DNA from: Rhodanobacteraceae bacterium
Lineage (GTDB): Bacteria; Pseudomonadota; Gammaproteobacteria; Xanthomonadales; Rhodanobacteraceae
Direction: 5' to 3'
Assembly: GCA_016790075.1 (NCBI GenBank)
Contig: JAEUPP010000009.1
Location: forward strand, 16,157 to 80,156
Length of the DNA: 64,000 bases
Part shown: positions 7,873 to 55,604 of the stretch, piece by piece
Position numbering within the stretch: position 1 is the stretch's first letter
Layout of the letters: every line of letters begins with the position of its first letter
Notes under the pieces: model-generated
Database searches by the model: none
Seen by the model: only the letters and a program-made list of their open reading frames with translations
Told to the model about the DNA's origin: nothing
Program-made: the position numbers and the translations under genes

Positions 7873-7879
7873 CTTGCGC

Positions 7880-7905
7880 CCACCTTACGCCTCAGCGTGA
7901 GGTGG
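7880..7905 (+). terminator. Hairpin after CadC-like gene
   Basis: An 11-bp stem (CCACCTTACGC / GCGTGAGGTGG, one G-T wobble) with a CTCA loop begins 8 bases after the stop codon. It has no T-run, so terminator activity is uncertain. Confidence 0.4.
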
Positions 7906-8068
7906 CGGCTGCCTCCGGGTCACGGTTTCCACGTCGTCGTGCCATGCTCGAACCGCGGTATTGCTTACCGCGCCTCTCGCACCCTCGCAGTGCGAAGTCG
8001 TTTATGCATCGTCACCACGGCTGTGTTGGCGCAACTAACGTTGCGTTTACCAGCATGAGGAAATCACG

Positions 8069-10324
8069 ATGCGTTTTGATTTGGTCCCCCTGGCTCTGGT
8101 GGCGGCTGTTGCAGCTTCTTCCGCGCAAGCCCAATCCGTCGAGTCGCGCGCTGCGCAGCTTGGCTTCTCCCACGTAAGCGTCGGCAGTAGCGGCCGTGTG
8201 GACATGCTTTCCGGCCGTCCCAACCTGCGCGCCGCGACTAGCGAAGGCGTGGTCAACCTGTTCAAAGGTGAACTAGGCAATACCGTCGGCCTGCAGACCG
8301 ATGGCGCCGTAAGCGTATTCGACACGAATGTCACGGCTGACGGCCGCCGCTACTACCGCGCCCAGCAAACCTACCGCGGCATTCCGGTCTGGGGTGATGG
8401 CCTCACAGTACAGACCGACGCCAGTGGCAACGTCGAAGCCATATTCGGCAGCGCGATTCCGGTTGCGAACCTGAGCATCGACAAACCACGTCCAGCAGCC
8501 GAGTTGTTCCCTGCTGCCGTCCTCGCGGCGCTCGCCATCGAAGGCCATACCATGGGCGCCCGATTGAGCGGCAAGTTCTTCCGCTATACGCGCGAGCCCA
8601 GCCTTGCTGTCTATGCAGCCGACGGCCACACACCGGTGCTGGCCTGGGATGCGGACGTTTCCTACGATAACGGCGGCCGTATTTTCCATTCGCGCCTGTT
8701 TGTCGACGCACGCAACGGCAGCTTGTTAAACAGTTATACCTATGTGCGTGAAGCACTGAATCGCGCCATCCATAATCTCAACGGCACCTGCATCACGAAC
8801 AGCGGCGGTAATCTGCCGGGCCAGTTGGTCCTGAGCGAAGGCGGCAACAGCAGCGACAGCGTGGTGAACCAGGCCTATCGCAATGTAGGTCGCGTCTATT
8901 GGTTCTTCCGCGATGCGTTCAACCGCGACAGCTTCAACGGCAGCGGTGCCAGGATCACGGTATCGGTGCGCGGCCAGTTTCCGACTCCGCAGGGCGGTTG
9001 CAGCGGCGACAACGCCATATGGAGCGGGTCGCAGATCGTGATGGGCCGTGGCGGCTCGACGTTCAAGGACATGAATACCGAGCCAGATGTGATGTATCAC
9101 GAACTCGGCCACGCGGTGACGCAGTCCACCTCCAACCTGGTCTACCAGAAGGAATCCGGCGGCCTCAACGAAGCCACCTCGGATATCTACGCGGCCTCGG
9201 TCGAAGCCTGGATGAATACGGTTTCGGGCGAGCCCGGAGCGGGAACGGCGGTCAACTACGTGCCGGACGCCGACACCTGGAATCTGGGTGAAAACATGCG
9301 TGCCGACGGCAGCAGCGCGCCGCTACGCTACATGCACGACCCCAAGGCCGACGGACGCAGCCTCGACCACTACACCCAGTACACACAACAGTATGGCAAC
9401 TGCTCGCCCTCGCAACAGAACGACATGTGCGGCGTGCATCTGTCCAGCGGCATCGCCAACCTCGCCTTCTACTTGCTGACCGTCGGCGGCACCCATCCGC
9501 GTAATGCCTCCAGCGTCAGCGTGCCCAAGATTCCGTTCGATCGCGCCATCAAGTACGTCTATGAGGCGCATACCAGCGTCCTGCAGGCCAACGACGGCTT
9601 CAGCCGCATGCGCAACGCGATGATGGCGCGTGCCCGGGTCAACGGCTCGGTTGGCCCTTGCGACGAGATTTCGGTGGCCAAAGCCTGGGACGCGGTCGGC
9701 GTCAGCGGCAGCGCGCCCAGCAATCCCAACGCCTGCGGCGGTGGGGGTGGCGGCGGCAACCAGTCACCGGTGGCGTCGTTCACGGCCACGCCCAGCGGCC
9801 TGACGGTAGCGCTGAACGGCAGCGGGTCGAGTGATCCTGACGGCACGATTTCCAGCTACACCTGGAATTTCGGCGATGGCACCACCGGTTCCGGCGCCAG
9901 CACCACCAAGACCTATAGCAGCGCTGGCACCTACACCGTAACGCTGACTGTCACCGACAACCAGGGCGCTACCAACACCGCAACACGCCAGGTTACGGTC
10001 GGCGGCGGCGGCGGTAGCTGTGCCGGAGCAAGCTATTCCGGAACTTTCTCCGGTGGATTCGGCCAGACCCAGTACCAACCAAACGGCAACTACTACCAGG
10101 CCAATAGCGGCGCGCACACGATCTGCTTCTCCGGTCCAGCCGGCACCGATTTTGATATTTTCCTGGATCGCTGGAACGGCTCTGCCTGGGCCAATGTCGC
10201 CAAGAGCGACGGGCCCAGTTCGTCCGAGCAGATCAGCTATAACGGCGCCGCAGGCTATTACACCATCCGCGTCATCAACTACCAGGGAACTGGTGCGTAT
10301 ACGCTGAACCTGCGGAAGCCGTAA
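8069..10324 (+). CDS. Secreted M4 (thermolysin-like) metalloprotease with PKD and PPC domains
   Basis: This 751-residue exported zinc endopeptidase starts with a signal peptide (MRFDLVPLALVAAVAASSAQA). An FTP-type inhibitory propeptide follows (about 60-200, with YRGIPVWGDGLTVQTD). The M4 catalytic domain carries HELGH at 344-348 and the third zinc ligand E368 in NEATSDIY, exactly the thermolysin spacing. A glycine-rich linker separates this from a PKD domain (about 564-646, DPDGTISSYTWNFGDG). A second Gly linker leads to a C-terminal pre-peptidase domain (about 655-751), usually removed on secretion. AGGAAA lies 7-8 bases before the ATG. It is probably monocistronic, with an intrinsic terminator behind it. 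The likely role is extracellular protein degradation for nutrition or interaction with other cells. Confidence 0.95.
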   Translation: MRFDLVPLALVAAVAASSAQAQSVESRAAQLGFSHVSVGSSGRVDMLSGRPNLRAATSEGVVNLFKGELGNTVGLQTDGAVSVFDTNVTADGRRYYRAQQTYRGIPVWGDGLTVQTDASGNVEAIFGSAIPVANLSIDKPRPAAELFPAAVLAALAIEGHTMGARLSGKFFRYTREPSLAVYAADGHTPVLAWDADVSYDNGGRIFHSRLFVDARNGSLLNSYTYVREALNRAIHNLNGTCITNSGGNLPGQLVLSEGGNSSDSVVNQAYRNVGRVYWFFRDAFNRDSFNGSGARITVSVRGQFPTPQGGCSGDNAIWSGSQIVMGRGGSTFKDMNTEPDVMYHELGHAVTQSTSNLVYQKESGGLNEATSDIYAASVEAWMNTVSGEPGAGTAVNYVPDADTWNLGENMRADGSSAPLRYMHDPKADGRSLDHYTQYTQQYGNCSPSQQNDMCGVHLSSGIANLAFYLLTVGGTHPRNASSVSVPKIPFDRAIKYVYEAHTSVLQANDGFSRMRNAMMARARVNGSVGPCDEISVAKAWDAVGVSGSAPSNPNACGGGGGGGNQSPVASFTATPSGLTVALNGSGSSDPDGTISSYTWNFGDGTTGSGASTTKTYSSAGTYTVTLTVTDNQGATNTATRQVTVGGGGGSCAGASYSGTFSGGFGQTQYQPNGNYYQANSGAHTICFSGPAGTDFDIFLDRWNGSAWANVAKSDGPSSSEQISYNGAAGYYTIRVINYQGTGAYTLNLRKP

Positions 10325-28411: not shown

Positions 28412-30067
28412 ATGCCACTGACCAGCCGTTACGGCGCATTGCTACTTTGCGCCGCTCTTGTTGCTCCCAGCGCGCATGCGCGCACGTTCTTCAAGTCCGG
28501 CTTCGAGCCCGCGACCGATATTCCCGCCACCGACGGCGAAGCCGCCCGCTTCCTGACTCAAGCCACTTTCGGGCCGACCGAAGCGGACATCGCCAAGGTG
28601 CGCCAGATCGGCCTCTCAGCCTGGATCGACCAGCAGATGAACGCGGTCGCCATGACCGCGGCGCGCCCACATATGGAATCCGTAGCTGCCGCCATGACCG
28701 CCGGCGGCACGGAGACGATAGGCCAGAACCAGCGCATGAGCCGTTGGTTCCATACGGCCGTCACCGGTCCTGACCAGCTACGCCAACGCACTGCCTGGGC
28801 GCTGTCGCAAATCTTCGTAATCTCCGACACGAACGGCGCCATCAGCGGCGAACCGGTTCAGATGAGCGAGTACTGGGATCTGCTAGCACGCAATTCGTTC
28901 GGCTACTACCGCACCTTGCTCGACGAAGTGACCTACAACCCGTCCATGGGCAAGTTCCTGAGTCACTTCCGCAATCGCAAGGCCGCCACGGGCCGCGAAC
29001 CTGACGAGAACTACGCCCGCGAAGTGATGCAGCTGTTCTCGATAGGCCTGGTCGAGCGCAATATCGACTACTCGCCGCTGCTGCAAGGCGGCCAGCCGAT
29101 TCCGACTTACGACCAAAGCGTCATCAGCAACTACGCCAAGGTATTTACGGGTTTTGCCTATAACAACGCGGGCACCAACCTGTTCGGAGGAACAAACACC
29201 TATCTGCCCATGTCCTGTGTCGCGACCGAACACGATACGACGGCGAAAGTGCTGGTCGGCGGCACCACGATTCCGGCAGGTCAGACTTGTGCGCTCGATG
29301 TGCGTGACGGCCTCAACCTGCTGGCCTCGCACCCCAACGTCGCGCCGTTCATGGCGCGCCAGTTGATACAGCGTTTCACGACCAGCAACCCTACGCCGGC
29401 ATACATCACCCGCGTGGCACAAAAGTTCAACGACAATGGCGATGGCGAACGCGGCGACCTTGCGGCCGTGATCAAGCAGATCCTGCTCGATCCCGAAGCG
29501 CGCGCCGCGAATCCACCGGCGAATTTCGGCAAGGTGCGCGAACCACTGCTGCGTCTGACCGCCGTGCTGCGCGCCTGGAATTTCCAGCTGCCCGCTGCGA
29601 CGCAGTATGGCGAGATCCGCATGGGCATGACCAATCCAACCGCAAGCTATGCTCAGCGTCCGCTGGGCGCAGCGACCGTGTTCAACTTCTACGAACCCGA
29701 CTATCAGCCGCCCGGCCCGGTTGCCAACGCGAACCTGTTTGCACCGGAGATGCAGATCATCAACGAAGGCACGACGTATTCCATTTCCAATAGTCTCGCC
29801 GACTACACGTTTCGCTATTACGTCGGCATGACGAATCCGCCCACTGATCGTCCGCTGATCAACGTGGCCGAGCTTAGCGGTCTGTCTACTGCGGCGGAGA
29901 TGGTCGATCTCGTCAACCGGCGCATGTTCTACAACCAGATGACGGCCAGCACGCGCACGACGCTGCTGAACATGCTGAACTTCATGAACGGCGCCACGGC
30001 GAGCGAAAAGGCACGCTCGCTGCTGCAGATCGCCGCCATGTCGCCCGAATTTGCCACGCAACGCTGA
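28412..30067 (+). CDS. DUF1800 family exported protein, copy 1
   Basis: The product is 551 residues with an N-terminal signal peptide (about 1-23, ending PSAHA) and then FFKSGFEPATDIPATDG, a lead-in seen in many exported xanthomonad proteins. The DUF1800 body follows: EAARFLTQATFGPTEADI, AWIDQQM, RQRTAWALSQIFVIS, FLSHFRNRKA, DENYAREVMQLFSIGL, and later FMARQLIQRFTTSNPTP and REPLLRLTAVLRAW. CCGGGGAAG precedes the ATG. The DUF1501 gene follows after 10 bases, and the two families are linked in many genomes, so they presumably act together. The biochemical role is not established. The two-gene unit is repeated immediately downstream (32169-35319). Confidence 0.9.
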   Translation: MPLTSRYGALLLCAALVAPSAHARTFFKSGFEPATDIPATDGEAARFLTQATFGPTEADIAKVRQIGLSAWIDQQMNAVAMTAARPHMESVAAAMTAGGTETIGQNQRMSRWFHTAVTGPDQLRQRTAWALSQIFVISDTNGAISGEPVQMSEYWDLLARNSFGYYRTLLDEVTYNPSMGKFLSHFRNRKAATGREPDENYAREVMQLFSIGLVERNIDYSPLLQGGQPIPTYDQSVISNYAKVFTGFAYNNAGTNLFGGTNTYLPMSCVATEHDTTAKVLVGGTTIPAGQTCALDVRDGLNLLASHPNVAPFMARQLIQRFTTSNPTPAYITRVAQKFNDNGDGERGDLAAVIKQILLDPEARAANPPANFGKVREPLLRLTAVLRAWNFQLPAATQYGEIRMGMTNPTASYAQRPLGAATVFNFYEPDYQPPGPVANANLFAPEMQIINEGTTYSISNSLADYTFRYYVGMTNPPTDRPLINVAELSGLSTAAEMVDLVNRRMFYNQMTASTRTTLLNMLNFMNGATASEKARSLLQIAAMSPEFATQR

Positions 30068-30077
30068 GGGTGCTGCG

Positions 30078-31565
30078 ATGAACTCCAACGAACAAGCCCG
30101 TCGCCGCTTTCTGCGCAATCTTGGCATCACACTTGGCGCTGGTGGCGCGTCGGCGCTGCTGCCCCAGCTCAAGCTCATGAGTTCGGCACTGGCCGCCGAA
30201 AAAGGCACGGTTGCCGGTTATCGCGCACTGGTCTGCGTCTACCTCGCTGGCGGCAATGATTCCTGGAACATGCTGCTGCCGTACGACACCGCACTTCATG
30301 GCGTCTACGCGACGGCGCGCGGAGGCATCTACAACGCGACCACGAACCCGGGCGGCCTCGCCATCGACCGTGCGGCACTGACCAGCCAGTTCCAGATCAC
30401 CGACAGCGCCAGCGGCGCGCAGTACGCGGTCAATCCGGGCAATGTGAACTATCCGACTGGCATGAGTGATCTCGCGACGATTTACCGCGCGAACAAACTC
30501 GCCTTTATCGCCAATATCGGCACCTTGGTACGACCGATCACAAAAGCGGAATACAACAGCACGCCGTCCTCGCGCCCACCCCAACTGTATTCGCACAACG
30601 ACCAGGAAAACCTCTGGCATCTGGCGCGCACCAGCACAGCTGCCACCGGCTGGGGCGGCCTGCTCGCAGATCGCGTGCGGCTGGACAACGTCAATCAATC
30701 GCTGTCGCCCTGTATCTCACTCGCGGGCGCAAACCGCTTCGAGGTTGGTGAAAATACCTTCCCTTACCAGATGTCATCGAGTGGTCTGACCGGTCTTGCG
30801 AATATCTACAATTCAGCCAGCAGCAGCGGCGGAACCTACGGTTCGCAGCGTGCGGGTGCACTGGATCTGCTGCTTGCCGACACCTCGAATCCATCGCTGT
30901 TGACCCAGGAATACGCACGCACCTTCAAACGTGGCCGCGATCTCTATGACCTCGTCAATTCATCCCTGACTGCAGGTGATGGCTCAGGCAACGTGACTAC
31001 CGTATTCCCGGCCAACAACTCCTTGGCCGACCAGTTGAAGATGGTCGCGCGCATGATCAAGATTTCGCGCGAATCCAGTGGCCAGATCCAGCACAAGCGG
31101 CAGATCTACTACGTGCGCTTTGGTGGCTTTGATCTGCACGATGGGCTCATGGCGACCAACACCGGGGGCCACGGCGCCCTGCTCAATCGCGTTTCACAGG
31201 CATTGAGTGCATTCTGGACCGCACTGGGCGAGATCGGCGCACAGAACGAGGTAACCACCTTCTCGATGAGTGAATTCGCACGCACCCTGAGCTCCAATGG
31301 CAACGGCTCAGACCACGCCTGGGGCGGCGTGCAGTTCGTCATGGGTGGCATGGTCAACGGCGGGCGTCTGTACGGCACCTTCCCGGATCAGGCGCTGAAC
31401 AACGCGATCAGCTTCTCACGCGGCCAGACCATACCATCAACCAGCGTCGACCAGATGGCTGCAACACTGGCGCGCTGGATGGGAGTTACTGCGAGCAACG
31501 ACCTCGCGGCAATCTTCCCTAACCTGATCAACTTCCCGACCTCCAATCTCGGGTTTATGGCCTAG
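30078..31565 (+). CDS. DUF1501 family Tat-exported protein, copy 1
   Basis: The product is 495 residues, started at the ATG at 30078 after GAGGGTG; an ATG at 30051 lies inside the preceding gene. A twin-arginine signal (RRRFLRNLGIT at about 8-18, then a hydrophobic Gly/Ala stretch) indicates folded export. The DUF1501 body begins ALVCVYLAGGNDSWNMLLPYD, the alkaline-phosphatase-superfamily-like opening of this family. Further motifs are YSHNDQENLWH, TGWGGLLADR, FTMSEF-type FSMSEFARTL, SDHAWGGVQFVMGG and GRLYGTFPD. The Asp/His-rich motifs suggest metal binding, but no activity is known to me. It forms a two-gene operon with the DUF1800 gene before it. Confidence 0.9.
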   Translation: MNSNEQARRRFLRNLGITLGAGGASALLPQLKLMSSALAAEKGTVAGYRALVCVYLAGGNDSWNMLLPYDTALHGVYATARGGIYNATTNPGGLAIDRAALTSQFQITDSASGAQYAVNPGNVNYPTGMSDLATIYRANKLAFIANIGTLVRPITKAEYNSTPSSRPPQLYSHNDQENLWHLARTSTAATGWGGLLADRVRLDNVNQSLSPCISLAGANRFEVGENTFPYQMSSSGLTGLANIYNSASSSGGTYGSQRAGALDLLLADTSNPSLLTQEYARTFKRGRDLYDLVNSSLTAGDGSGNVTTVFPANNSLADQLKMVARMIKISRESSGQIQHKRQIYYVRFGGFDLHDGLMATNTGGHGALLNRVSQALSAFWTALGEIGAQNEVTTFSMSEFARTLSSNGNGSDHAWGGVQFVMGGMVNGGRLYGTFPDQALNNAISFSRGQTIPSTSVDQMAATLARWMGVTASNDLAAIFPNLINFPTSNLGFMA

Positions 31566-31582
31566 TCGCCTCACGGCGAAAA

Positions 31583-31631
31583 GCGGCAGCAGCTGGAGTG
31601 ATGGCGGAACGGCGCCGCCAGCTCCTGCCGC
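31583..31631 (+). terminator. Hairpin after first DUF1800-DUF1501 pair
   Basis: GCGGCAGCAGCTGG and CCAGCTCCTGCCGC form a 14-bp stem with one mismatch around a 21-base loop. It starts 18 bases after the DUF1501 stop and has no T-run. Confidence 0.45.
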
Positions 31632-32168
31632 GATCAGTACCGATTGCGCCAGCTTCGTGCGCAGTCCCTTCTGCTGAATCCTCGCGCCCGTGACGACGTC
31701 AGCGCGTGCGCGGCGCGTTTTTCAGAGCAACACACCTCACACAAAGTGGCTTCAAAGCCTCGCTGTCCCAGGATTCGAGCAAGCGCGATCCATGCTCTCT
31801 CGAGCACAGGCCTAGCTCCGATGAAAAACCCGGCATCCAACTACGGCGAGAGTCACTAGCACCTCGGGTTGCCAAGCTGACTCAACAGCCCGCTGAATCC
31901 TCTCTCCCATCTTGCACAGGTCGCCGGCAGTGATCAGTCGAAAATAATTTATACTGATCAAATTATCAAACTTGATAATTCAATAAAAATAAAAAATGCA
32001 TTTCAAATTCAAACCAAGCAAACCGAAGCAAGCGTAAATAAAGCGTTATTAGCCGCATTTATTCGCCAAAGAGTTTCACAACAGTTAACAATACCCGTGC
32101 ACGTCGTCACGAAGTGCTAAGACGCATGGCCGTATTTTCTTCGCTACGCCCGTATCGAGGATACCGCT
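31632..32168. other. Intergenic region between the two duplicated pairs, with an A+T-rich part
   Basis: No believable gene. From 31632 to about 31930 the composition is ordinary. From about 31935 to 32110 it drops to strongly A+T-rich sequence, rare in this window. This part carries inverted repeats listed separately and probably the promoter for the second gene pair. The first pair has no comparable upstream region, so the two copies are probably regulated differently. Confidence 0.6.
31931..31980. promoter_or_regulatory. Two nested inverted repeats in A+T-rich DNA, operator candidate
   Basis: TGATCAGT (31931-31938) and ACTGATCA (31953-31960) are perfect reverse complements 14 bases apart. 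Immediately after comes AATTATCAA-AC-TTGATAATT (31961-31980), a perfect 9-bp palindrome. The arrangement looks like binding sites for dimeric regulators ahead of the second DUF1800 gene. The regulator is unknown. Confidence 0.5.
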
Positions 32169-33821
32169 ATGCCTCCGTTCAGCCGCTGCGGTGCATTGCT
32201 ACTTGTCGCCATACTCATCACCCCTGCCGCATACGCACGCGTATTTTTCAAAACCGGTTTTGAGCCGGTGACGGATATTCCAGCTACCGATGGTGAAGCT
32301 GCCCGCTTCTTGACCCAGGCGACCTTCGGCCCTAACGAGGCTGACATCGCGAGGGTGCGCCAGATCGGTATGTCGGCCTGGATCGACGAGCAAATGAGCA
32401 CCGTCGCGATGACTGCCGCTCGACCGCATATGCAAGCGGTCGCTGCCGCAATGACCGCCGACGGGGAATCCATTGGACATGACCAACGCGTCAGCCGCTG
32501 GCTCCATACAGCCGTAACGGCACCCGACCAACTGCGTCAGCGTACGGCCTGGGCGCTATCGCAGATTTTTGTGGTCTCCGACGCCAGCAATGTCCTTGTC
32601 AACGAAGTAGTGAACATGAGCGAGTACTGGGATCTCCTCGCGCGCAATTCTTTTGGTTTCTACAGCACTTTGCTGAGCCAAGTGACGTATAGCCCTACGA
32701 TGGGAAAATACTTGAGCCACTTCCGTAATCGCAAAGCTGCGGCAGGCCGCCAGCCCGATGAAAACTATGCCCGTGAAGTGATGCAGTTATTCTCGATCGG
32801 TCTCGTCGAGCGCAACCTCGACTACTCGCCGCTGCTGCAAAACGGCCAGCCCATCCCGACTTACGACCAGAACGTCATCAGCAACTACGCCAAGCTGTTT
32901 ACCGGATTCGCATACAACAACGCAGGTTCAAACCTGTTCGGCGGCACGAACACTTACTTGCCGATGTCCTGCGTTGCGACCGAGCACGATACGACTGCAA
33001 AGGTCCTTGTCGGCGGCGCTACGCTACCCGCCGGGCAGACCTGCGAGGCGGACTTGCGCGACGGTCTTGGCCTATTGGTTGCGCATCCCAACACCGCGCC
33101 GTTTATGGCGCGGCATCTCATACAGCGCTTTACGACCAGCAACCCGTCTCCGCAATACATCACGCGCGTCGCGCAAAAGTTCATCGACAACGGCGACAAC
33201 GAGCGCGGCGATCTCGCTGCTGTGATCAAGCAGATCCTGCTCGACCCGGAAGCACGCGCCGTCAACCCGCCAGCAACGTTCGGCAAGGTACGTGAACCTT
33301 TGCTGCGCCTTACGGCCGTGCTGCGCGCCTGGAATTTCCAACTACCGGCGGCTACACAGTATGGCGAGATCAAAATGGGCTTGAACGCCGTAACGACCAG
33401 TTACGCGCAGCGCCCAATGGGAGCCCCTACTGTCTTCAATTTTTACGAGCCCGACTATCAGCCGCCAGGACCCATGGCAGCTGCGGGGCTGTATGCGCCT
33501 GAAATGCAAATTATCAATGAGGGAACGTCGTTCTCAATTTCAAACAACCTAGCCTATTACACATTTCGTGACTATGTCGGCATGCCGAACCCCCCGGCCG
33601 ATCGCCCCCTCATTAACCTGGCTGAATTCAACACGCTGACAACACCGGAACAGCTGATCGGCCTGGTCGATCGGCGCATGTTCTATGGGCAGATGACGGC
33701 CACGATGCGCAGCACGCTTACCACCTTGCTGAATTCCATGGGCAACGCAACAACGACCGAGAAGGCACGTTCGCTGTTGCTGATCTCAGCCATGTCACCC
33801 GAATTTGCAACGCAGCGCTGA
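32169..33821 (+). CDS. DUF1800 family exported protein, copy 2
   Basis: The product is 550 residues and highly similar along its whole length to copy 1. The signal peptide ends PAAYA and is followed by FFKTGFEPVTDIPATDG. The same blocks appear (FLTQATFGPNEADIARV, RQRTAWALSQIFVVS, DENYAREVMQLFSIGL, TTSNPSPQYITRVAQKF). Differences are scattered substitutions, denser near the C-terminus (LAEFNTLTTPEQLIGLVDRRM against LAELSGLSTAAEMVDLVNRRM in spirit), with no frameshifts, so both copies appear functional. Codons here are visibly less GC-biased than in copy 1 (for example more TTT, AAT and TTG). The gene stands behind an A+T-rich region with inverted repeats. Confidence 0.9.
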   Translation: MPPFSRCGALLLVAILITPAAYARVFFKTGFEPVTDIPATDGEAARFLTQATFGPNEADIARVRQIGMSAWIDEQMSTVAMTAARPHMQAVAAAMTADGESIGHDQRVSRWLHTAVTAPDQLRQRTAWALSQIFVVSDASNVLVNEVVNMSEYWDLLARNSFGFYSTLLSQVTYSPTMGKYLSHFRNRKAAAGRQPDENYAREVMQLFSIGLVERNLDYSPLLQNGQPIPTYDQNVISNYAKLFTGFAYNNAGSNLFGGTNTYLPMSCVATEHDTTAKVLVGGATLPAGQTCEADLRDGLGLLVAHPNTAPFMARHLIQRFTTSNPSPQYITRVAQKFIDNGDNERGDLAAVIKQILLDPEARAVNPPATFGKVREPLLRLTAVLRAWNFQLPAATQYGEIKMGLNAVTTSYAQRPMGAPTVFNFYEPDYQPPGPMAAAGLYAPEMQIINEGTSFSISNNLAYYTFRDYVGMPNPPADRPLINLAEFNTLTTPEQLIGLVDRRMFYGQMTATMRSTLTTLLNSMGNATTTEKARSLLLISAMSPEFATQR

Positions 33822-33831
33822 GGAGACTGCG

Positions 33832-35319
33832 ATGAACGCCAACGAACAAGCCCGTCGCCGCTTTCTCCGTAATCTCGGCATTACGCTCAGCGCTGGAGGC
33901 GCATCGGCATTTCTGCCCCAGCTCAACCTTTTGGGTTCGGCGCTGGCCGCCGAAAAGGGAACTGTCGACGGCTACCGCGCCCTGGTCTGTGTCTATCTGG
34001 CAGGAGGCAATGACGCCTGGAATACGCTGCTACCCTACGACAGTGCACGCTATAACATCTACTCGACAGCACGCAGCGGTGTCTACAACGCGACTACCAA
34101 TCCTAGCGGACTCGCTATCGACCGTGCCGCATTGACCAGCCAGTTTCAGATCACCGACAGCGCAACCGGTGCGCAGTATGCGCTGAACCCAGGCAACGCC
34201 AACTATCCCAGTGGCATGAGCGCGCTCGCTTCGATTTATCGCGCGAACAAGCTCGCTCTCATTTCCAATATCGGTCCATTGATCCGCCCGATCACGAAGG
34301 CCGAATACAACGCCTCAGCAGCGGTGCGTCCGCCGCAGCTGTACTCGCATAGCGACCAGGAAAACCTCTGGCACCTGGCACGAACGAGCTTTGCCAGTAC
34401 AGGTTGGGGTGGCCTCATCGCCGATCGCGTACGTATCAACAACGTCAATCAGTCATTGTCGCCGTGCATTTCTCTGGGCGGCTCGAACCGCTTCGAGATC
34501 GGCGCAGACACCTTCCCGTATTTCATGGGGGCGGAGGGCCTGAACGGCCTCGCCTTCGTCTACAGCGCGCCCAACAGCACCGGCGGTTTCTTTGGTACGC
34601 AGCATGCAGCCGCGATCGACGCGCTGCTGAACGACACGTCGAACCCGTCGGTAATGACGCAGGAATACGCACGCACGTTCAAGCGCGGCCGGACACTGTA
34701 CAACGTGGTCAATTCGTCGCTGACTGCAGCCGACGGCTCGGGCAATGTCGCCACCGTATTCCCAACCGGCAATGCACTTGCCAGCCAGCTCAGGATGGTC
34801 GCACGGATGATCAAGGTGTCGCGCGAGGCCAGCGGCCAGATACAACATAAGAGACAAATATACTATGTACGACTGCACGGCTTCGACATGCACGATGGAC
34901 TGATGGCGGCGGACAATAGCGGTCACGCCGCACTACTCAACCGCGTGTCGGAAGCACTGGGCGCATTCTGGACGGCACTGGGTGAGATTGGCGCGCAGAA
35001 CGAAGTGACCACGTTCACGATGAGCGAGTTCGGCCGCACCCTGGGGCCCAACGGCAACGGGTCTGATCATGCCTGGGGCGGCGTGCAGCTCGTCATGGGC
35101 GGCATGGTCAACGGCGGCCGCCTCTACGGCACGTTCCCCGATCAGACACTGGACGGCCCCGTGAGCTTCGCGCGTGGTCAGCTCATTCCATCAACCAGCG
35201 TCGACCAGATGGCTGCAACACTGGCGCGCTGGATGGGCGTTACCGCGACGAATGATCTTGCGACCATCTTTCCGAACCTGATCAATTTCCCAACCTCCAA
35301 TCTCGGCTTTATGGCGTAG
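33832..35319 (+). CDS. DUF1501 family Tat-exported protein, copy 2
   Basis: The product is 495 residues, identical in length to copy 1 and closely similar throughout. The ATG at 33832 follows GAGGAG and lies 10 bases after the preceding stop, the same spacing as in copy 1. The Tat motif RRRFLRNLGIT is conserved, as are ALVCVYLAGGNDAWNTLLPYD, YSHSDQENLWH, FTMSEFGRTL, SDHAWGGVQLVMGG and the C-terminus INFPTSNLGFMA. The middle (about 230-275) differs most, with FYFMGAEGLNG-like sequence where copy 1 has FPYQMSSSGLTG. Intact frames and retained motifs argue that both copies are kept by selection. Role unknown. Confidence 0.9.
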   Translation: MNANEQARRRFLRNLGITLSAGGASAFLPQLNLLGSALAAEKGTVDGYRALVCVYLAGGNDAWNTLLPYDSARYNIYSTARSGVYNATTNPSGLAIDRAALTSQFQITDSATGAQYALNPGNANYPSGMSALASIYRANKLALISNIGPLIRPITKAEYNASAAVRPPQLYSHSDQENLWHLARTSFASTGWGGLIADRVRINNVNQSLSPCISLGGSNRFEIGADTFPYFMGAEGLNGLAFVYSAPNSTGGFFGTQHAAAIDALLNDTSNPSVMTQEYARTFKRGRTLYNVVNSSLTAADGSGNVATVFPTGNALASQLRMVARMIKVSREASGQIQHKRQIYYVRLHGFDMHDGLMAADNSGHAALLNRVSEALGAFWTALGEIGAQNEVTTFTMSEFGRTLGPNGNGSDHAWGGVQLVMGGMVNGGRLYGTFPDQTLDGPVSFARGQLIPSTSVDQMAATLARWMGVTATNDLATIFPNLINFPTSNLGFMA

Positions 35320-43870: not shown

Positions 43871-44530
43871 ATGAACTTACAGCGCGAATGGGCCTTATCC
43901 AGTGCTCCGCATAAGGCCCACTGCCGCCGTGAATTCTTCGACGCACAGAGCAGCGACCCCGAAGGGGTCGCACAAGCGCTGGAGCTGATCGGCGCACTCT
44001 ACGAAATCGAGCAAGACATACGTGATCGAAAGCTTGTCACCGAAGACAAACAAACCTTCCGCGCCACACACAGCAAACCCCGAATCGAGTAGTTCCTCGA
44101 TTGGGTCGAACAGCAACGACGACGATCTGACCGCTTGCCCAGCAACCCCTTCGCCAAGGCACTCCGTTATGCCTGGGAACGGCGTGTCGCGCTATTGGTC
44201 TACCTGATCGACCCCGATGTACCGATCGACACGAATCACCTCGAACGCAGTTTGCGGCCCATTTCGATGGGGCGCCGCAATTGGCTCTTCTGTTGGACCG
44301 AGCTGGGCGCCAAACACGTCGGCATCGTGCAAAGCCTGATCGTTACCTGCCGGCTACACGGCATCGATCCTTACACCTACCTTGTCGACGTGCTGCAGCG
44401 CGTTGGCCAGCATCCCGCTTCGCGCGTTCACGAGCTCACGCCCAGGCTCTGGAAGCAGCACTTCGCCGATGCGCCACTTCGATCCATCCTCTACACGCTG
44501 CAGCGGGAAGGTGGCAAGTACGTCCGGTAG
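43871..44530 (+). pseudogene. IS66-family transposase (TnpC) C-terminal remnant with internal stop
   Basis: The frame reads AHCRREFFDAQSSDPEGVAQ and ALELIGALYEIEQDIRD, then a TAG at about 44090-44092. It continues in the same frame with FLDWVEQQRRRSDRLPSNPF, AKALRYAWERR, IDTNHLERSLRPISMGRRNW, LFCWTELGAKHVGIVQSLIV and GIDPYTYLVDVLQRVGQHP. These are the C-terminal hallmarks of IS66 transposases, including the final catalytic glutamate in NHLERSLRP. The N-terminal two-thirds (zinc finger and first Asp) and the accessory genes tnpA and tnpB are missing. The remnant is dead. It marks an insertion hotspot between radA and the next genes. Confidence 0.85.
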
Positions 44531-48761: not shown

Positions 48762-48931
48762 CGAGAGGAAAAAGCGCGGATGAGAGCTCCTATGCGAGCG
48801 CAGATCGCCTGCCCTCGGCACCGCCAGCGACATGGAACACACCAACGCAAGACCAGTGGACAGTTGTCCGTTCCGGTCAGGAACTGCCGCCATCTGTGCA
48901 ATGCAGGGCGGCCAAGCGCCTCTGCGGGCAC

Positions 48932-51900
48932 CTAGCCCGAGGCCCCTCCCGCACCCGGCACATCAAGCTCGCGAGCCAGCTCACCCGATGCCCAGCCTTC
49001 GACCGTGCCCTTGCCACGCAGCACGATCTCAAGTTCCTTTGCCGTGATCGCTGCAAGTTTGTACCCAATACGCTCGGCTTCCTGACGCGCGGCTTCGACC
49101 AGTTCGATAGCTTCCTTGCGCTGATCGCGCAACCGTTCATCTTCACCTGCACCCAGCAGCGCCGCCATGAGGTTGAGGGCGGCAATGCGCTTGACTTTGA
49201 ACCCCTGGCTTTTGGCCAGGGCCAGTGCATTCATCACATCCTCCCGGGCCGAACGCAGTTCGCCGAAACTCAGGTATAGCTTCGCGCGCACTAGACACAT
49301 CGTGACCTCGATGCGCCGTAGGCCCAGACGTTTGCATTCGAGTTCTATCTTGCGCAGGCGCGTGAGCTGATGGCGCAGACGCACCGCACTGTCCGCAAAC
49401 CGTGCGTCCCGCAGGAACTCCGCCTCGGACAACATGACAGCCAGAATCAGATCGGGCCGCCCCGAGGCCTCGGCTTCTACGCGTGCGATTTTCAGCGACT
49501 GAGGCACCTGCTTGCCATTGCCGTTGGTGCCCTGCACGTCGGCGAGAATCTGGTGAAACCACGCCGTCAGCCCATGCAGACCGAGCTCCACGACGTCATT
49601 CTTATGCTTGTCAAGCAACTCTTGCACGCTGCCGACCGAACCCGTGAGATAGGCGACGCGTGCATCGATCAGGATGCAGACCTGGAGCAGAACAGACACT
49701 TCACGATGAACAGCGGGTTGCTTGCTGAGTCCGTGCTTACCGGTATGGTCGCCACCGGATACGGGCAGGAACACGGGTACGCCAGCCAGTTTTTCGAGAT
49801 CGGACCGTGAACGCCGCACTATGCGTTCGACGCGCTCGAAGTCGCCACACTCAATAGCCGCCAGACAGATATTCAGCAGGATGCGTATCTTCGCCAGCGA
49901 AAAATCACGCTTGTCATGAATGCACCGGTCATATCCACTCTCGTTCGCATGACGCAGACGGTGCTCCTCAAAGCGTAGCGCGAGCTCGAACAACGGCATG
50001 GCATCGTTAACCCCGCCCTGCACCATGCGTACGACGCCGAGTTCATTGAGCAGCCAAATCCACTCGCGCTCGTACAGCGGCCAGACCAGATCGTCGTACC
50101 GATGTTCCGGCACGGCATCAGCATTGAGCAGCAACGCGCGTCGGATCGCGAGCAGACGGCGCAGGTATTCATCCAGCGGGGAAAGTGTACTGCCTTGGTC
50201 TGGCGTGGGCGCGGCACGCAACACAATGCCAATGCGCAGAGACCCACGCATCAGGCCAAACGCAGAACGAATACGCTCGGCCTGCAACGAGGCCGTGGCG
50301 ACCGCATCATCGGCCCCGTTGCCGGTTGCAGGGCCGGCGCCGTCACTATGCGCAACGGACTTCGCAACCGCTCCAGCGCGACCTGAATCGATCAGTGCGT
50401 CGAATAATTTGCCGAGGAAAACCAGGTCATCGGCATCCAGCGGCGCAGCTTCTTCTTCCAGCACAGGCAAGAGTGTCAGCGCCGTCTTCTCACGACCACG
50501 CACGATTTCAAACGGCAGCCCTTTTTTCGACGCGAGATAACGCCGCACCTGGTTGTGCAGGCTCAGCCTCCGCTTCGAGCCGGCAGTTCGGCGTGAGTTG
50601 AGCTCGACCGCGAGCTGGTGGTCGACAAGCCACTTCGCGGCCCTGTCGATCGTATTGCCGTGCTCCTTGCTTTCGATTTCATAGCTGCTCAGGATCTCGA
50701 GAATTTCCGGGCAGCAGCCGAGGATGTCCTGATCGATCGCATTGCCGAACGCAAACAGGTGCTTGAGGATGCAGTGAGCCAGGATCTTGTTGAGCCGCTC
50801 ATTGAAGTCGCCATAGCCGACGACACGGCGCTCCAGATGCGACATGGCAATGTCGATGACCGTCACGACGCGCTGGCGCGGATCCTGGACCAGCCGCAGG
50901 CCATGTTCGATGTCCTCGAGCATTTGCGTGCGGAACTGTGTGAACGAGCCTGCCGCACTGCACGCGGCCCCTTTGAGCGGATCGCCATTCAGTATCGAAA
51001 CGAGAAACACCGCGAGCCAGCGCGACTCACAAAGCCCCAGGATATGTACGAGCGTACGCGCGAGTTCGCCTAGATCCTCGAGCAACGCCGCCGGCGCGAG
51101 CTCCGCCGCGCCAGCTGCCGGCGGCGACAATAATTCAACGCGACGGACACTGCAGGCAGCGTGGGGGGCCGGAGCACGCCCCGCTGCGTTCAGCTCAGCG
51201 CAAAGCCGTGTGAAATAACCGCTGGTCTGCGGGAATTCGCACAGAACAAGCAGACGGACGCTTCTTTCGCACAGCAGCTTGCGAAACATCAAATGCCATT
51301 CCGCGAGTTTTGGCACGCCGTGATTGCGGCTGAAGATAAGATCGGTTTGCAGGACCACGCAGTCAGCGCTGTGGTCCTTGTCCTTGCTTAGCCAGCACAG
51401 CATGTCGGCAAGCATGTCAAAGCACGAATCGAACTCGCAGGAGTTCGCAAACGAGATAATCCAGCGCCGGTGTTTTTTTGCAGCTGGCGGTTTGGCCAGG
51501 AGGCCGGCGGCCGTCCCCTTTCCGCGCCCCGCGGGCCAGCAGGCAAGCACCAAGGTGTTTTTCTTGCCTAGCTTTTCTTCGATGTCCTTGCCGATTTTGC
51601 CGAAACACCCATCAATCGTTCGGCTGTTGCCGGCCGCTGATTGATCAAACGAGGTGACGATGCTCGGGAGGCGCCAGTCAACGACTTTGCGCGCCTCACC
51701 GTGACGACGGTCCCAGGCCGGTTCGCGAAAGCGTCGCCAGACCACATCGGGCTGGCCCGGCTGCTCGAGCCTCCCTCTTGGGAAATAGGCCCAGCGTCGC
51801 CGCCATTCGAGTGCCTTGCGCGTGAAGAACACCAGGGCGTCCTGAAGCGCGCGAGCGCGGATAGCTTGCTCGATACTGTCCAGCGCACGCAGGTAATCCT

Positions 51901-53857
51901 GCTGCGACGCACGCATGCGCCGCAGCTCGGCAGGTCGGCGTGAGAACAGCGAGTAGAAGATGTGCTGGAACACTGCCGCATGACCCGGCGTCAATCGCAA
52001 CCGCGGCAAGCGATGCGCCGCATAAAGCTCGTTAAGAAAGTATCGGCGCTCCAGGCTGTCGGCCGCTGCCTCCTTGCGGAAAACGCTGGGGAATACCTTG
52101 ATCACATCCCCGACAAACACGCCGAATAGTTTGTCAGCTTCGGCATATAGCATCGCATCGCTCAGTGACTCGCTATCGATTTTCGCCAACCCCTTGACCA
52201 AGGCGCGCATCGCGTCGAGAACACTGCGCTCATCGCGCAAAGGCGGCAGACTCGCAATCAGGTGGTCAATTGCCTTGTCGTCTTTGTTCTCGAACAGGGC
52301 TGGTGCAGCGGCGCGTAAATCGTCGACCAGCGGGTGCTGGGAGAAGCTGCCAAACTCCGGATCGAGATCACGTCCCAACCGCGTGCCGACAAACAGCGTA
52401 CGCACGCCATAGCGCTGATACAGCTTGAGCGCAACGGCCGTGTCGCGATCGTCACCATCGGACTCAAGAAACGCGAACGCGGTCCGGCTCTCCCGGTTCG
52501 AGCTGTTGGCGAGCAGCCGCAGTGGCCGCAGCAGCTCGTCTTCCTTCATACCAACACCGAAGAAAACGACCGCATTCCCGCGAAACAGCATTTCCTGTCC
52601 GTCACCAAGGGCGGCTGACCAGCCGCCGGGCGAAAAATAGCGGCTGTTGTAGTCGCTATCGGTCACGATCATGCGCGAAGGGTCGCGCACGGAACCATGC
52701 AGATGGACGACCTGGATGAGATCGGATGGATAGCCGGCAGCGAACAGCATAAGCTCGCCGGCATTCTCCGGCCCCAGATCAAACGAACGGCCACGCTCAC
52801 CAAGACGGGAGCGCACAACGGCCTGGCGTGCTGTGGAATCGGTATCCCAATCCAGACCAGGAGCAGCCGTTGATTCATCGCGGCGCGGCCGTACCGGCGA
52901 GGTCAACGAATAAAACGGGAAGTCGTAATATTCCAGCGCCCGCTCTATCTCGAGATCGTAGTTGAGCGTCAGGTAGCGCGTAATGCGCCAGTCGTTGCGC
53001 AGACAGGCAAGTATGTCGACAAACGGGCGTTTCGCCGCAATCAGCTCCTTGCGTGACACTGGTGCGCGCCGCACCTGTGGATCCGAATCAGACTTATCCT
53101 CTAACAGAAACCCAAGCAACCTCATTCCGTTCTTCAATTCGATGGGCACGCGCTGTGCGGTAGCGCTTGGCGCGCGAGTCGCCAAGCCGGAAAGCTCATC
53201 CACTACAAGGTCGGGCGCCAGGGCTGTAGGGTCCGCGATCGTTGCTGCGTCGACCGCTGCATGGCGGCCAGACTCCTGGTACGGCGGTACCCGGGGTATT
53301 GACCAGTCGTCCAGATCGGCTGGCGTATAGTCGAGCCAGCGTGCGCCATCCTTGGACACGCCGATGCTGTCGCGGATCCAGAAAAGCGTGCTCAGTTTCT
53401 TTTCTAACGCCGCATCGAAACTGCCCGCCTCAGCATGACCGATGGAGCGCAACCACAGATCCTGCTGCCACGCGAACTCCCGCGCTAGCGAGAGCACAGC
53501 AGCCGGATCGAAGCTGCGCCCCTCTGCCGTCTTCAGTGCCTCGAGGCTCTTGGCCAGGTCGCTGCAATACTTGGCGAGCGAACCGTGCGCAGCTACCGAA
53601 GCGTAGAGCTTTCTCTGCTCCAGTGCGGCATCAGCAAAAGCAACCGCGAAGTCCTTCCAGCTGTCGTAACCAAGCAGCACGCTGGTGCCTGACCCGACGA
53701 ATGCAACGAGTCCACCGACCGAAAAGGCCCGATACAGGTCAAGGATCGAGCGGGCGCGGATAGGTGCACTTGCGTCGGGATATTCGATACTCAACAAGTA
53801 GCACGAGACATTGTCCACATCCTCGGAGGGCTGCTGGGGCAATGATGACTCGGCCAT
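48932..53857 (-). CDS. Large SIR2-like / P-loop (STAND-like) / helical-repeat protein, candidate antiphage sensor
   Basis: The product is 1641 residues from the ATG at 53857 (GGAG seven bases before); an ATG at 53920 is less likely. The N-terminal SIR2-like NAD-binding domain (about 45-515) has FVGSGTSVLLGYDSW (GSGTS at 55-59), a conserved asparagine N299 in LTLNYDLEIERAL, the catalytic-type histidine H387 in VVHLHGSVRDP, DSDYNSRYF, and the closing strand VVFFGVGMKEDELL. After a helical spacer comes a P-loop-like segment, CWPAGRGKGTAAG, at about 773-785, with VVLQTDLIF in the Walker B place and VRLLVLCEFPQTSG as sensor 1; both are non-canonical. From about 1150 on the protein is helical, TPR-like repeats to the end. 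This layout (NADase effector, STAND-like switch, repeat sensor) matches single-gene antiphage proteins such as Avs5. It is a lone gene, with no obvious partner. Confidence 0.75.
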   Translation of the reverse strand: MAESSLPQQPSEDVDNVSCYLLSIEYPDASAPIRARSILDLYRAFSVGGLVAFVGSGTSVLLGYDSWKDFAVAFADAALEQRKLYASVAAHGSLAKYCSDLAKSLEALKTAEGRSFDPAAVLSLAREFAWQQDLWLRSIGHAEAGSFDAALEKKLSTLFWIRDSIGVSKDGARWLDYTPADLDDWSIPRVPPYQESGRHAAVDAATIADPTALAPDLVVDELSGLATRAPSATAQRVPIELKNGMRLLGFLLEDKSDSDPQVRRAPVSRKELIAAKRPFVDILACLRNDWRITRYLTLNYDLEIERALEYYDFPFYSLTSPVRPRRDESTAAPGLDWDTDSTARQAVVRSRLGERGRSFDLGPENAGELMLFAAGYPSDLIQVVHLHGSVRDPSRMIVTDSDYNSRYFSPGGWSAALGDGQEMLFRGNAVVFFGVGMKEDELLRPLRLLANSSNRESRTAFAFLESDGDDRDTAVALKLYQRYGVRTLFVGTRLGRDLDPEFGSFSQHPLVDDLRAAAPALFENKDDKAIDHLIASLPPLRDERSVLDAMRALVKGLAKIDSESLSDAMLYAEADKLFGVFVGDVIKVFPSVFRKEAAADSLERRYFLNELYAAHRLPRLRLTPGHAAVFQHIFYSLFSRRPAELRRMRASQQDYLRALDSIEQAIRARALQDALVFFTRKALEWRRRWAYFPRGRLEQPGQPDVVWRRFREPAWDRRHGEARKVVDWRLPSIVTSFDQSAAGNSRTIDGCFGKIGKDIEEKLGKKNTLVLACWPAGRGKGTAAGLLAKPPAAKKHRRWIISFANSCEFDSCFDMLADMLCWLSKDKDHSADCVVLQTDLIFSRNHGVPKLAEWHLMFRKLLCERSVRLLVLCEFPQTSGYFTRLCAELNAAGRAPAPHAACSVRRVELLSPPAAGAAELAPAALLEDLGELARTLVHILGLCESRWLAVFLVSILNGDPLKGAACSAAGSFTQFRTQMLEDIEHGLRLVQDPRQRVVTVIDIAMSHLERRVVGYGDFNERLNKILAHCILKHLFAFGNAIDQDILGCCPEILEILSSYEIESKEHGNTIDRAAKWLVDHQLAVELNSRRTAGSKRRLSLHNQVRRYLASKKGLPFEIVRGREKTALTLLPVLEEEAAPLDADDLVFLGKLFDALIDSGRAGAVAKSVAHSDGAGPATGNGADDAVATASLQAERIRSAFGLMRGSLRIGIVLRAAPTPDQGSTLSPLDEYLRRLLAIRRALLLNADAVPEHRYDDLVWPLYEREWIWLLNELGVVRMVQGGVNDAMPLFELALRFEEHRLRHANESGYDRCIHDKRDFSLAKIRILLNICLAAIECGDFERVERIVRRSRSDLEKLAGVPVFLPVSGGDHTGKHGLSKQPAVHREVSVLLQVCILIDARVAYLTGSVGSVQELLDKHKNDVVELGLHGLTAWFHQILADVQGTNGNGKQVPQSLKIARVEAEASGRPDLILAVMLSEAEFLRDARFADSAVRLRHQLTRLRKIELECKRLGLRRIEVTMCLVRAKLYLSFGELRSAREDVMNALALAKSQGFKVKRIAALNLMAALLGAGEDERLRDQRKEAIELVEAARQEAERIGYKLAAITAKELEIVLRGKGTVEGWASGELARELDVPGAGGASG

Positions 53858-54035
53858 CGCCAGTCTCCGGAACGCCGTACGGACACCGCCAGGCGCAGAC
53901 GGCATGCGATGTGCCGGCACACAGAGCCGCCGGCACGCAAAGACTCCTGTGCCTTCAGTGTGACCAATCTCTCAGCCAGCTGCGGTCGGCTACCGGCCAC
54001 GCACCGTCCGATACGTGGCTGGTCATGGTGCCTCG

Positions 54036-55604
54036 CTACGCCGCCCGATAGTTGTCCACTTCTCTATAACTTCGCGCATAGAAGCCGAAGATCAGCGCCG
54101 CCACAAGGGCAAATACGGCAAAGAAGAACATCTGGAATGCGGTGACGCTGAAACCGGTCGAGGCGATGGAACCGGTCACGGTGTCATTGCGCACGGCGAG
54201 GTTGGCGAGCAGCACCCAGAGATTGCCTATGGTCGTGGTGAGGTTCCAGAAACTCATGACCACGCCTTTCATCGCCGCAGGTGCCTGGCTGTAGGCGAAC
54301 TCCAGACCGGTGGCCGACACCAGCACTTCGCCGAACGTGAGCAGCGCATAGGGCAGCACCTGCCACACTATGGACATGGCATTGCCGCCGTCCATGACGA
54401 CCTGGATAGCTCCGATCACGATCCAGGACAGGCCGCTGAAGGCAATGCCCGCCGTCATTCGGCGCAAGGCCGTTGCTTCCCAGCCTATGCGGCGCAGCCA
54501 GGGATACAGCACGAGATTGTTGAATGGGATAAGGATCATGACCAGCGCCGGATTCAGCGCCTGCATCTGCGAGGCAACGAACCATTCGGGCTTGGTCATG
54601 GCATTGCCCTGGATCACCCAGGTCGAAGCCTTCTGGTCGAACAGCGAGAAGAACGGCGTGACCAGGGCGAAGATCACCAGCACGCGAAGCACGCTGCGCA
54701 CGCCATCGACCGCGGCATCCGCATGCAGGCCGCGGGCGCGTTCCAGTTGCTGCCAGGCGCCGCCGCCGACACCGGCGAGCAGCGCGACCAGGGCCAGGCA
54801 AATCGCAATCACGATGCCCAGCTTGTGGGCGAACGCGAGCGCTAGCACAGCAAGCGCGGCACCGGCGATGGCGACATAGAGACCAGGGCGACCCGCACCG
54901 TCACGGCGTGCCAGCAGCGCCGTACGCACGACACGGTAGAACGAGTCGGGATCCGCACTGCTCGCTGGCGGCACCATGACGTATTGGCGCCGGCCCAGCC
55001 ACAGCACGATAGTCGCGATCAGCATCAGCACGCCGGGGATGCCAAACGCGACCTGAGGGCCATAGTTCTTGAGAAACAGCGGCATCAGCAGCGACGCGAA
55101 CAGCGATCCAAAATTGATGATCCAGTAAAAGCCGTCGAAAACGATCTTGGCCAGATGCTTGTTCGCCTGGGTGAACTGGTCTCCGACAAAGGAAGCAACC
55201 AGCGGCTTGATGCCTCCGGAGCCCAGTGCTATCAGCCCCAGCCCGACGAAGAAGCCGATGCGGTTATCCACAAACAGCGCCAGACTGAACTGGCCTATGC
55301 AGTAGATCAGGCTGAACCAGAGAATCGTGTTGTACTTGCCGAAGAAGCGGTCGGCGATATACCCCCCGAGCAGCGGAAAGAAATACACGCCTATCATGAA
55401 GGTGTGCATCAAGTCCTTGGCTGCGAGTTCGCGCTCGGCGCCAGCGGTCACATGCTGCAGCAGCAGCGAGGTGATCAGGAACTGCACCAGAATATTACGC
55501 ATGCCGTAGAAGCTGAAACGCTCGCAACCTTCGTTGCCGATGATGTAAGGAATCTGGCGCGGCATGCGGGCGGCAGGTGGCGCAGAAGCAGTTGTCATGG
55601 TCAT
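54036..55604 (-). CDS. POT/PTR2 family proton-dependent peptide transporter
   Basis: The product is 522 residues from the ATG at 55604, five bases after GGAG (a GTG at 55610 and an ATG at 55598 are alternatives). Family signatures: the proton-coupling motif NEGCERFSFYGMRNIL (ExxERF) in helix 1, GGYIADRFFGKYNTI after helix 2, and ALGSGGIKPLVASFVGDQF in helix 4-5. About 14 hydrophobic helices are visible. The long loop (about 200-240) holds the extra segment between the two bundles. It imports di- and tripeptides with protons across the inner membrane. It is the last gene of the rluC-mutL series, 34 bases after the VUT transporter. The secreted protease at 8 kb would supply peptides to it, an indirect link only. 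Confidence 0.93.
   Translation of the reverse strand: MTMTTASAPPAARMPRQIPYIIGNEGCERFSFYGMRNILVQFLITSLLLQHVTAGAERELAAKDLMHTFMIGVYFFPLLGGYIADRFFGKYNTILWFSLIYCIGQFSLALFVDNRIGFFVGLGLIALGSGGIKPLVASFVGDQFTQANKHLAKIVFDGFYWIINFGSLFASLLMPLFLKNYGPQVAFGIPGVLMLIATIVLWLGRRQYVMVPPASSADPDSFYRVVRTALLARRDGAGRPGLYVAIAGAALAVLALAFAHKLGIVIAICLALVALLAGVGGGAWQQLERARGLHADAAVDGVRSVLRVLVIFALVTPFFSLFDQKASTWVIQGNAMTKPEWFVASQMQALNPALVMILIPFNNLVLYPWLRRIGWEATALRRMTAGIAFSGLSWIVIGAIQVVMDGGNAMSIVWQVLPYALLTFGEVLVSATGLEFAYSQAPAAMKGVVMSFWNLTTTIGNLWVLLANLAVRNDTVTGSIASTGFSVTAFQMFFFAVFALVAALIFGFYARSYREVDNYRAA

Follow-up and report, generated by a model that had tools for sequence, protein, structure and literature searches.

Sensors of the STAND class, among them the NLRs and the Avs proteins, are generally described as switches driven by ATP. 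In Thoeris, ThsA carries a C-terminal nucleotide-binding STALD/SLOG domain and is partnered by the TIR-domain protein ThsB. DSR2 is a single SIR2 protein of large size, helical in its C-terminal part, and is not known to have a P-loop module. PaAvs5 combines a SIR2 domain, an nSTAND3 module (PF20720) with the Walker A sequence GPAGSGKT, and TPR or other repeats, and NAD is depleted upon phage infection; the published account reports that defence was lost upon mutation of Walker A, of the SIR2 domain or of Walker B, in the last case with E410A but not with E410Q, and that Walker B is reduced in PaAvs5-1 (PMC12931631). The SAMD9 family of animals and bacteria has a SIR2-like domain, a STAND-like NTPase with a GG[T/S] P-loop and a TPR array, with AlbA before these and an OB-fold after them (PMC5445408).

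The DNA analysed here (the window) is a 64,000-nucleotide stretch of a Rhodanobacteraceae bacterium genome (GCA_016790075.1, contig JAEUPP010000009.1), and coordinates without a locus name refer to it. It encodes, at 48932..53857 on the minus strand, a protein with a SIR2 domain, a STAND-like module and a presumed helical-repeat end. The 1641-residue open reading frame reported there by an earlier note, which gave no strand, was found to be intact, with an ATG start at 53857, a stop codon at 48932-48934 and no internal stops. A GGAG sequence lies upstream of the ATG, its end 7 nt from the start codon, and an alternative GTG start further upstream would give a protein of 1,662 aa instead of 1,641 aa. 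The gene had a GC3 of 0.69, compared with 0.75–0.81 for seven other genes of the window. Pfam analysis of the window protein revealed a single domain, SIR2_2 (PF13289); an NCBIfam scan returned nothing but one meaningless match, and a PDB phmmer search with this protein as the single query gave no matches at E ≤ 1. The four motifs named earlier were all located, namely GSGTS (G55-S59), TLNYD (T297-D301), HLHG (H385-G388) and PAGRGKGT (P775-T782). A decayed gene was ruled out by the open frame and the conserved catalytic residues.

A scan of genome contigs with the single sequence revealed no relatives. Two plasmid-borne relatives, in Methylobacterium FF17 (28%) and Azospirillum lipoferum 4B (35%), were first matched via the SIR2 part only; full-length alignments were nevertheless obtained of each protein with the query and between the two. 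A scan of GTDB contigs with a five-member alignment, which had a more central first row, yielded 25 loci from 122 pattern matches. Two of these had been found before (L012, which is genome G608, and L016, which is G450), and the L018 protein was identical to the Methylobacterium plasmid protein (2,082/2,082 residues). Nineteen of the 25 loci were labelled Alphaproteobacteria, the rest being two Lysobacterales, one Derxia, one labelled Mesoflavibacter and two Acidobacteriota. An alignment of 26 proteins was built from the query, the plasmid protein of Azospirillum and all of the 25 loci except L014, the gene of which is split into two ORFs. Four of its rows are incomplete: L013 is interrupted by an IS, L016 and L033 run into a contig edge, and L035 is represented by the first of two ORFs. 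The relatives at L014:9974-15571 and L035:10058-15282 each consist of two consecutive ORFs on the same strand. At L013:6018-14776, an IS21-type element (IstA/IstB-like ORFs at 6954-9235, identified by eye) separates the half containing the GSG motif from the rest. The identity of the query to the other aligned proteins was 18–25% over aligned columns, and only L017, L028 and L029 were close to one another. As full-length relatives exist elsewhere at this distance, the ORF is not a product of chance. A tree built without rows L033 and L035 paired the query with L032 at 100/100, with a warning from the program of long branches.

The distribution of the family was sporadic. A match was found in 1/197 genomes of a family sample (the window's own; the other 196 had none), in 2/299 of an order sample (own and G608) and in 3/398 of a phylum sample (own, G450 and a short separate SIR2 protein in G590), the three draws possibly overlapping. 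The G590 protein, a separate SIR2 protein of 376 aa, was dropped as a family member. At L011:4315-10862, a separate 376-aa SIR2 protein lies amid HsdM/HsdS-like type I restriction genes and a DUF262-like protein (by eye). With a match in one of 197 family genomes, a conserved chromosomal gene was ruled out; the earlier note had held that homologues in one conserved chromosomal place would speak against its proposal, and both the genome samples and the junctions described below gave the opposite picture. Relatives occur on plasmids, and IS elements or transposases interrupt or border those at L013, L018/L002, L022 and L003 (partly by eye). No relatives were found in the viral contigs and phage records searched.

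Alignment with congeners revealed the gene and its short flanks to form an accessory segment (48762..54035, no strand). The genus sample held seven congeners, and the loci of five were compared (G036, G065, G014, G091 and G079, not G050 and G103); the gene was missing at the junction in all five. At L047, L049 and L051 the sequences matching position 54036 and about 48760 lie 15, 243 and 69 bp apart, respectively, without the gene between them. At L050 no more than about 0.9 kb separates the transporter end from a PadR-like gene, and the interval contains a weak inverted match; L048 (G065) retains the transporter side with a different opposite side. The flanks at 46.7–48.8 kb and 54.0–62.6 kb are syntenic in the congeners, most fully in L047, L049 and L051. 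The simplest explanation is therefore that the 5.27 kb at 48762-54035 were added between the gene for the peptide transporter and the putative terminator (by eye) of the next gene. A comparison of its edge stretches showed no shared or inverted word of at least 10 bp, only short chance-like repeats; transposon cargo with visible ends was ruled out, there being no flanking repeat of note. The earlier description of an accessory stretch between insertion-sequence remnants and a mutL operon thus holds for the accessory segment itself but not for its surroundings, which are syntenic in the congeners. The added segment is not bordered by the IS66-like transposase fragment (44135-44530, by eye), which lies about 4.4 kb from the stop codon of the gene. 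Elsewhere in the window, a pair of genes encoding about 550 and 504 aa (DUF1800- and DUF1501-like by eye) is present in two tandem copies at 28412-35319.

The SIR2-like domain spans about residues 38-515 (52313..53746, minus strand), as indicated by Pfam, a PDB profile search and Foldseek. SIR2_2 matched residues 295-487 with an E value of 1.8e-13 (51.2 bits against a cut-off of 24.5) and exceeded the Pfam cut-off in 10/10 family members scanned. The GSGTS sequence (residues 55-59; 53681..53695, minus strand) corresponds to the NAD-binding loop and aligned with those of ThsA and KomC. N299 and D301 of TLNYD (52955..52969, minus strand), H387 and G388 of HLHG (52694..52705, minus strand), Y407 and G434 were identical in 26/26 aligned proteins, a count that includes L017 and L029, which are 94% alike, and L028, which is 70% like both. 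In the query, a long insert (about residues 68-280) separates the GSG motif from the NYD motif; the spacing is 244 residues, and ranged from 125 to 472 over 25 measured rows, the values for L013 and L016 being unreliable as their N-termini are missing.

A search of the PDB with a profile of 25 SIR2 regions placed ThsA nearest (2e-17 and 2e-10), followed by KomC (8e-9), FAM118B (5e-6), DSR2 (0.06) and EfAvs5 (0.52). In the profile alignment the counterparts of N299 and H387 in ThsA were residues 112 and 152, the former being Ala in the 8bto chain. H387 also aligned with residue 146 of KomC, the position altered in PDB entry 9xvc, which is named H146N. The predicted structure of the SIR2 region had a mean pLDDT of 57.4, and its Foldseek matches under an E value of 1e-3 were FAM118B (8.7e-5) and EcThsA (1.8e-4), although the TM-score of the top match by query length was low (0.24). 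KomC, SPARSA and DSR2 matched more weakly, then EfAvs5 (9jap) at 0.098. These matches and the conserved Asn and His bear out the assignment of an NADase-type SIR2 domain in the earlier note, and from the sequence the domain would be expected to have NADase activity. The comparison with defence-family HMMs suggested there did return SIR2-type PADLOC models, but the matches of the window protein were weak (Dsr1 2.5e-4, PDC-S25 5e-4, ThsA 0.012, LmuA 0.032). Across five family members the matches were likewise weak and confined to the SIR2 part, with a best E value of 2.7e-8. The likeness to ThsA ends with the SIR2 domain, as ten members had no STALD/SLOG-type Pfam match at E ≤ 1 and carry a STAND module and repeats instead. 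The family resembles DSR2 in its large size, its single-protein SIR2 plan and its helical C-terminal part, but is distant from it by SIR2 profile.

The central region was modelled over residues 690-1195 (50273..51790, minus strand). In the model, four to five strands made up a P-loop core (about residues 745-893), which was accompanied by a helical bundle and winged-helix strands (about 1083-1100), as expected from the STAND-like centre proposed earlier. Mean pLDDT was 66.9, with 67–87 per ten-residue block over model residues 81-200 and 67–69 at the P-loop itself. NB-ARC NLRs led the Foldseek matches, with NRC2 best (E value 6.9e-7), followed by NRC4, the NB-ARC of NRC1, ZAR1, CED-4 and NLRP7, and with ORC/Cdc6-type AAA+ proteins interspersed; the TM-score of the top match by query length was low (0.41). 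The predicted arrangement of P-loop core, helical bundle and winged helix is thus shared with the NB-ARC NLRs and NLRP7, but identity in the structural alignments was 11–16% and the family is without the canonical Walker A and B sequences. A PDB profile search with the central region returned nothing significant (best E value 0.027), and Pfam matches of NTPase type (STAND/NACHT/AAA) were sub-threshold and present in 4/10 members scanned.

The P-loop of the query (G777-x-G779-K780-G781; 51515..51529, minus strand) is atypical, and the 26-row alignment showed this to be a property of the family, with the consensus GxG[K/R]G. G777 and G779 were present in 26/26 rows and K780 in 21/26 (Arg in four and Asn in one), such that Lys or Arg was kept in 25/26, whereas the position of the Walker A Ser/Thr was Gly (G781) in 25/26. 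The Walker B-like strand CVVLQTDLIF (residues 833-842; 51332..51361, minus strand) has Leu at the Asp position and an Asp three residues on. Across the alignment this Asp position held N in 11 rows, S in eight, G in three, and T, L (the query) and D in one each, one row being unreadable, and Asp was therefore replaced in 24/25 readable rows. A second alignment, of 24 rows, agreed (Walker A Gly in 23/24, Walker B Asp in 1/24) and showed an acidic residue three positions past the Walker B site to be common (20/24). The lone Walker B Asp and the lone Walker A Ser were both in L034, an Acidobacteriota protein. The suspicion that the P-loop and Walker B of the window protein are unusual was therefore well founded. 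Conservation of the odd Gly points to function rather than decay, and replacement of both the Mg-binding Ser/Thr and the Walker B Asp makes nucleotide binding with little or no hydrolysis probable. Adenylate kinases, which are active, also have Gly after the P-loop Lys, so a loss of hydrolysis is likely rather than certain. Judged on these residues, the STAND switch probably binds nucleotide and hydrolyses it poorly, and the conserved loss of both putative Mg-binding side chains is the most telling new feature of the family.

Residues 1196-1641 (48935..50272, minus strand) form the C-terminal helical-repeat region, which is TPR/MalT-like in relatives and is presumed to be the sensor. The TPR-like end described earlier was detected in the relatives, with TPR-type Pfam matches (E ≤ 1) in 9/9 others scanned, over the Pfam cut-off in 4/9, but the window protein itself gave no TPR match at E ≤ 1. 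W1268, N1271, E1272 and G1281 of the query C-terminus are at family-conserved positions.

As one protein with the order SIR2_2, STAND-type NTPase and TPR-type repeats, and with the SIR2 Asn conserved, the family is most readily compared with Avs5. The P-loop is nevertheless of the GKG type in 25/26 proteins, compared with GPAGSGKT in PaAvs5-1, and the His of the HG motif is present in 26/26, whereas about half of Avs5 proteins have NG, according to the Avs5 account (PMC12931631). Ten family members scanned gave no match to nSTAND3 (PF20720) at E ≤ 1, and the PADLOC matches of five members, from a library that may contain no such model, included none named Avs5. SAMD9 proteins share the SIR2-like domain, the STAND-like NTPase with an altered P-loop and the TPR array, but their description has the Lys altered, whereas the present family keeps Lys or Arg in 25/26 and loses the Ser/Thr (PMC5445408). 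AlbA and OB-fold domains had no Pfam match in ten family members scanned. In a literature search without most subscription papers, no title or start of an abstract among those listed described the present family. By the tests run, which are comparisons of sequence, the family appears distinct from Avs5. The missing nSTAND3, the weak PADLOC matches, the SIR2 profile nearer to ThsA and the GKG-type P-loop agree with the earlier suggestion of a separate branch rather than a known type.

The gene was earlier described as lone, which is the case for the window copy but not throughout the family, as 8/25 related loci had a nearby gene of one family of large proteins (695–947 aa as ORFs). Their P-loop is exemplified by GPPGAGKS and their Walker B by FFDEFD, and two of four scanned exceeded the cut-off for Pfam AAA (PF00004). 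In seven of the eight, the AAA+ gene is directly upstream on the same strand, at −98 to +300 bp when counted to the first start of the SIR2 ORF. The Methylobacterium gene is oriented divergently, a transposase-like ORF separates it from the SIR2 gene, and its product ends in an RyR domain (PF02026, E value 1.1e-14); the remaining seven sequences stop before the RyR region. Seven of the eight loci fall in one branch of the tree. Among the ORFs of the other fetched loci there was no further strong match to the AAA+ partner and one weak match (L020, E value 0.002), the contig edge being too near to judge at L012, L016, L022, L024 and L033. One partner protein used as a query against the window's own genome gave no match, in a search with no positive control. 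A PfkB-like N-terminus suspected by eye in the AAA+ protein was discarded, as Pfam scans of four partners at E ≤ 1 did not return one.

The wider neighbourhood was surveyed through 203 ORFs (at least 170 aa, within 7 kb, many perhaps spurious) at 24 loci, L029 and L033 being left out; 181 of these and one annotated L003 gene (182 proteins) were scanned with PADLOC. Among the matches listed, which cover the top 25 of the 103 families in one scan and of the 41 in the other, clear defence genes were present within 7 kb at at least 3/24 loci, a count with no baseline. These were a type II restriction cluster at L021, a short Argonaute pair at L022 and an AbiU-like gene at L030; L035 had a generic PADLOC-matched kinase. 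Also among the matches listed were 'mad3' (three members, best 7.7e-34) and 'mad8' (two and two members). Defence genes were seen near some relatives, but by eye no defence gene was recognised adjoining the window copy. The picture fits mobile defence cargo; with neighbourhood counts that have no control set, no enrichment is claimed. Additionally, a 440-aa protein resembling the metallo-beta-lactamase fold (by eye) is encoded directly upstream of the Sphingomonas relative (L031:7876-9195), and its C-terminus matched the PADLOC LmuA model at 1.6e-9. The 824-aa product of L003:12838-15309, downstream of the Azospirillum plasmid relative, has membrane and patatin-like motifs by eye but was not matched by Pfam at E ≤ 1. 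The gene at L012:5831-7318, immediately downstream of the Lysobacterales relative, encodes a 496-aa protein that was matched neither by Pfam (E ≤ 1) nor by PADLOC (1e-5).

We consider it probable, with some reserve, that the protein is an immune sensor, a NADase of the STAND type that belongs to a branch apart from Avs5 and has a switch that binds nucleotide and probably hydrolyses it poorly. In the resting protein, the STAND module would be kept closed by the TPR-like array of the C-terminus together with the winged-helix region. Binding of an invader-derived protein, probably of phage origin, to the C-terminal repeats would let the STAND module open and oligomerise; NAD+ would then be hydrolysed by the N-terminal SIR2 domains, now clustered, and growth would stop. 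The role in phage defence is suggested by analogy, and the oligomerisation and the ligand are likewise putative. The functional guess of the earlier note, NAD loss upon phage sensing via the C-terminal repeats, is a reasonable conjecture. A divergent Avs5 (AVAST type V) with ordinary ATP-dependent STAND switching would account for the domain order of PF13289 SIR2, STAND and TPR-type repeats, for the presence of EfAvs5 among the SIR2 Foldseek matches, and for a weakened Walker B, which the Avs5 account also gives for PaAvs5-1 (PMC12931631). Set against the lack of nSTAND3, a SIR2 profile that fits ThsA far better than EfAvs5, and a Walker A unlike that of PaAvs5-1, we regard it as quite improbable.

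It is also conceivable, if unlikely, that the family is one half of a two-part system, in which the AAA+ ATPase reads or controls either the STAND state or what the SIR2 domain produces (ADP-ribose or a cyclic derivative), and that the window copy has lost its partner or never had one. The upstream position of most AAA+ genes and the RyR domain in Methylobacterium favour such a system, and a 2026 preprint reports that phage RyR-domain proteins bind or cleave cADPR signals, with hydrolysis described for one (PMC13232231). However, the partner is largely confined to one tree branch, the sequences there end before the RyR region, and neither the ORFs of the other fetched loci nor a single-query search of the window's own genome gave a strong match. 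Accessory SIR2-effector cargo directed against plasmids or other mobile DNA, or answering a non-phage stress, would suit two plasmid-borne relatives, several relatives beside transposases and the few known defence neighbours, but is improbable given that Avs5, the bacterial proteins with such a domain plan for which published tests were found, are antiphage (PMC12931631). An extension of the NADase immune sensor reading, offered tentatively and as possible rather than expected, is a family of hydrolysis-free STAND switches, sometimes with an AAA+ partner (an AAA+ RyR protein in one lineage) that would sense or recycle ADP-ribose made by the SIR2 domain.

As PADLOC models match five members weakly and in the SIR2 part only, surveys that rely on such models may miss the family. 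The AAA+ neighbour gene provides a new two-gene arrangement to test. A family that conserves a P-loop without either of the Mg-coordinating side chains would offer a test of whether an immune STAND switch needs hydrolysis.
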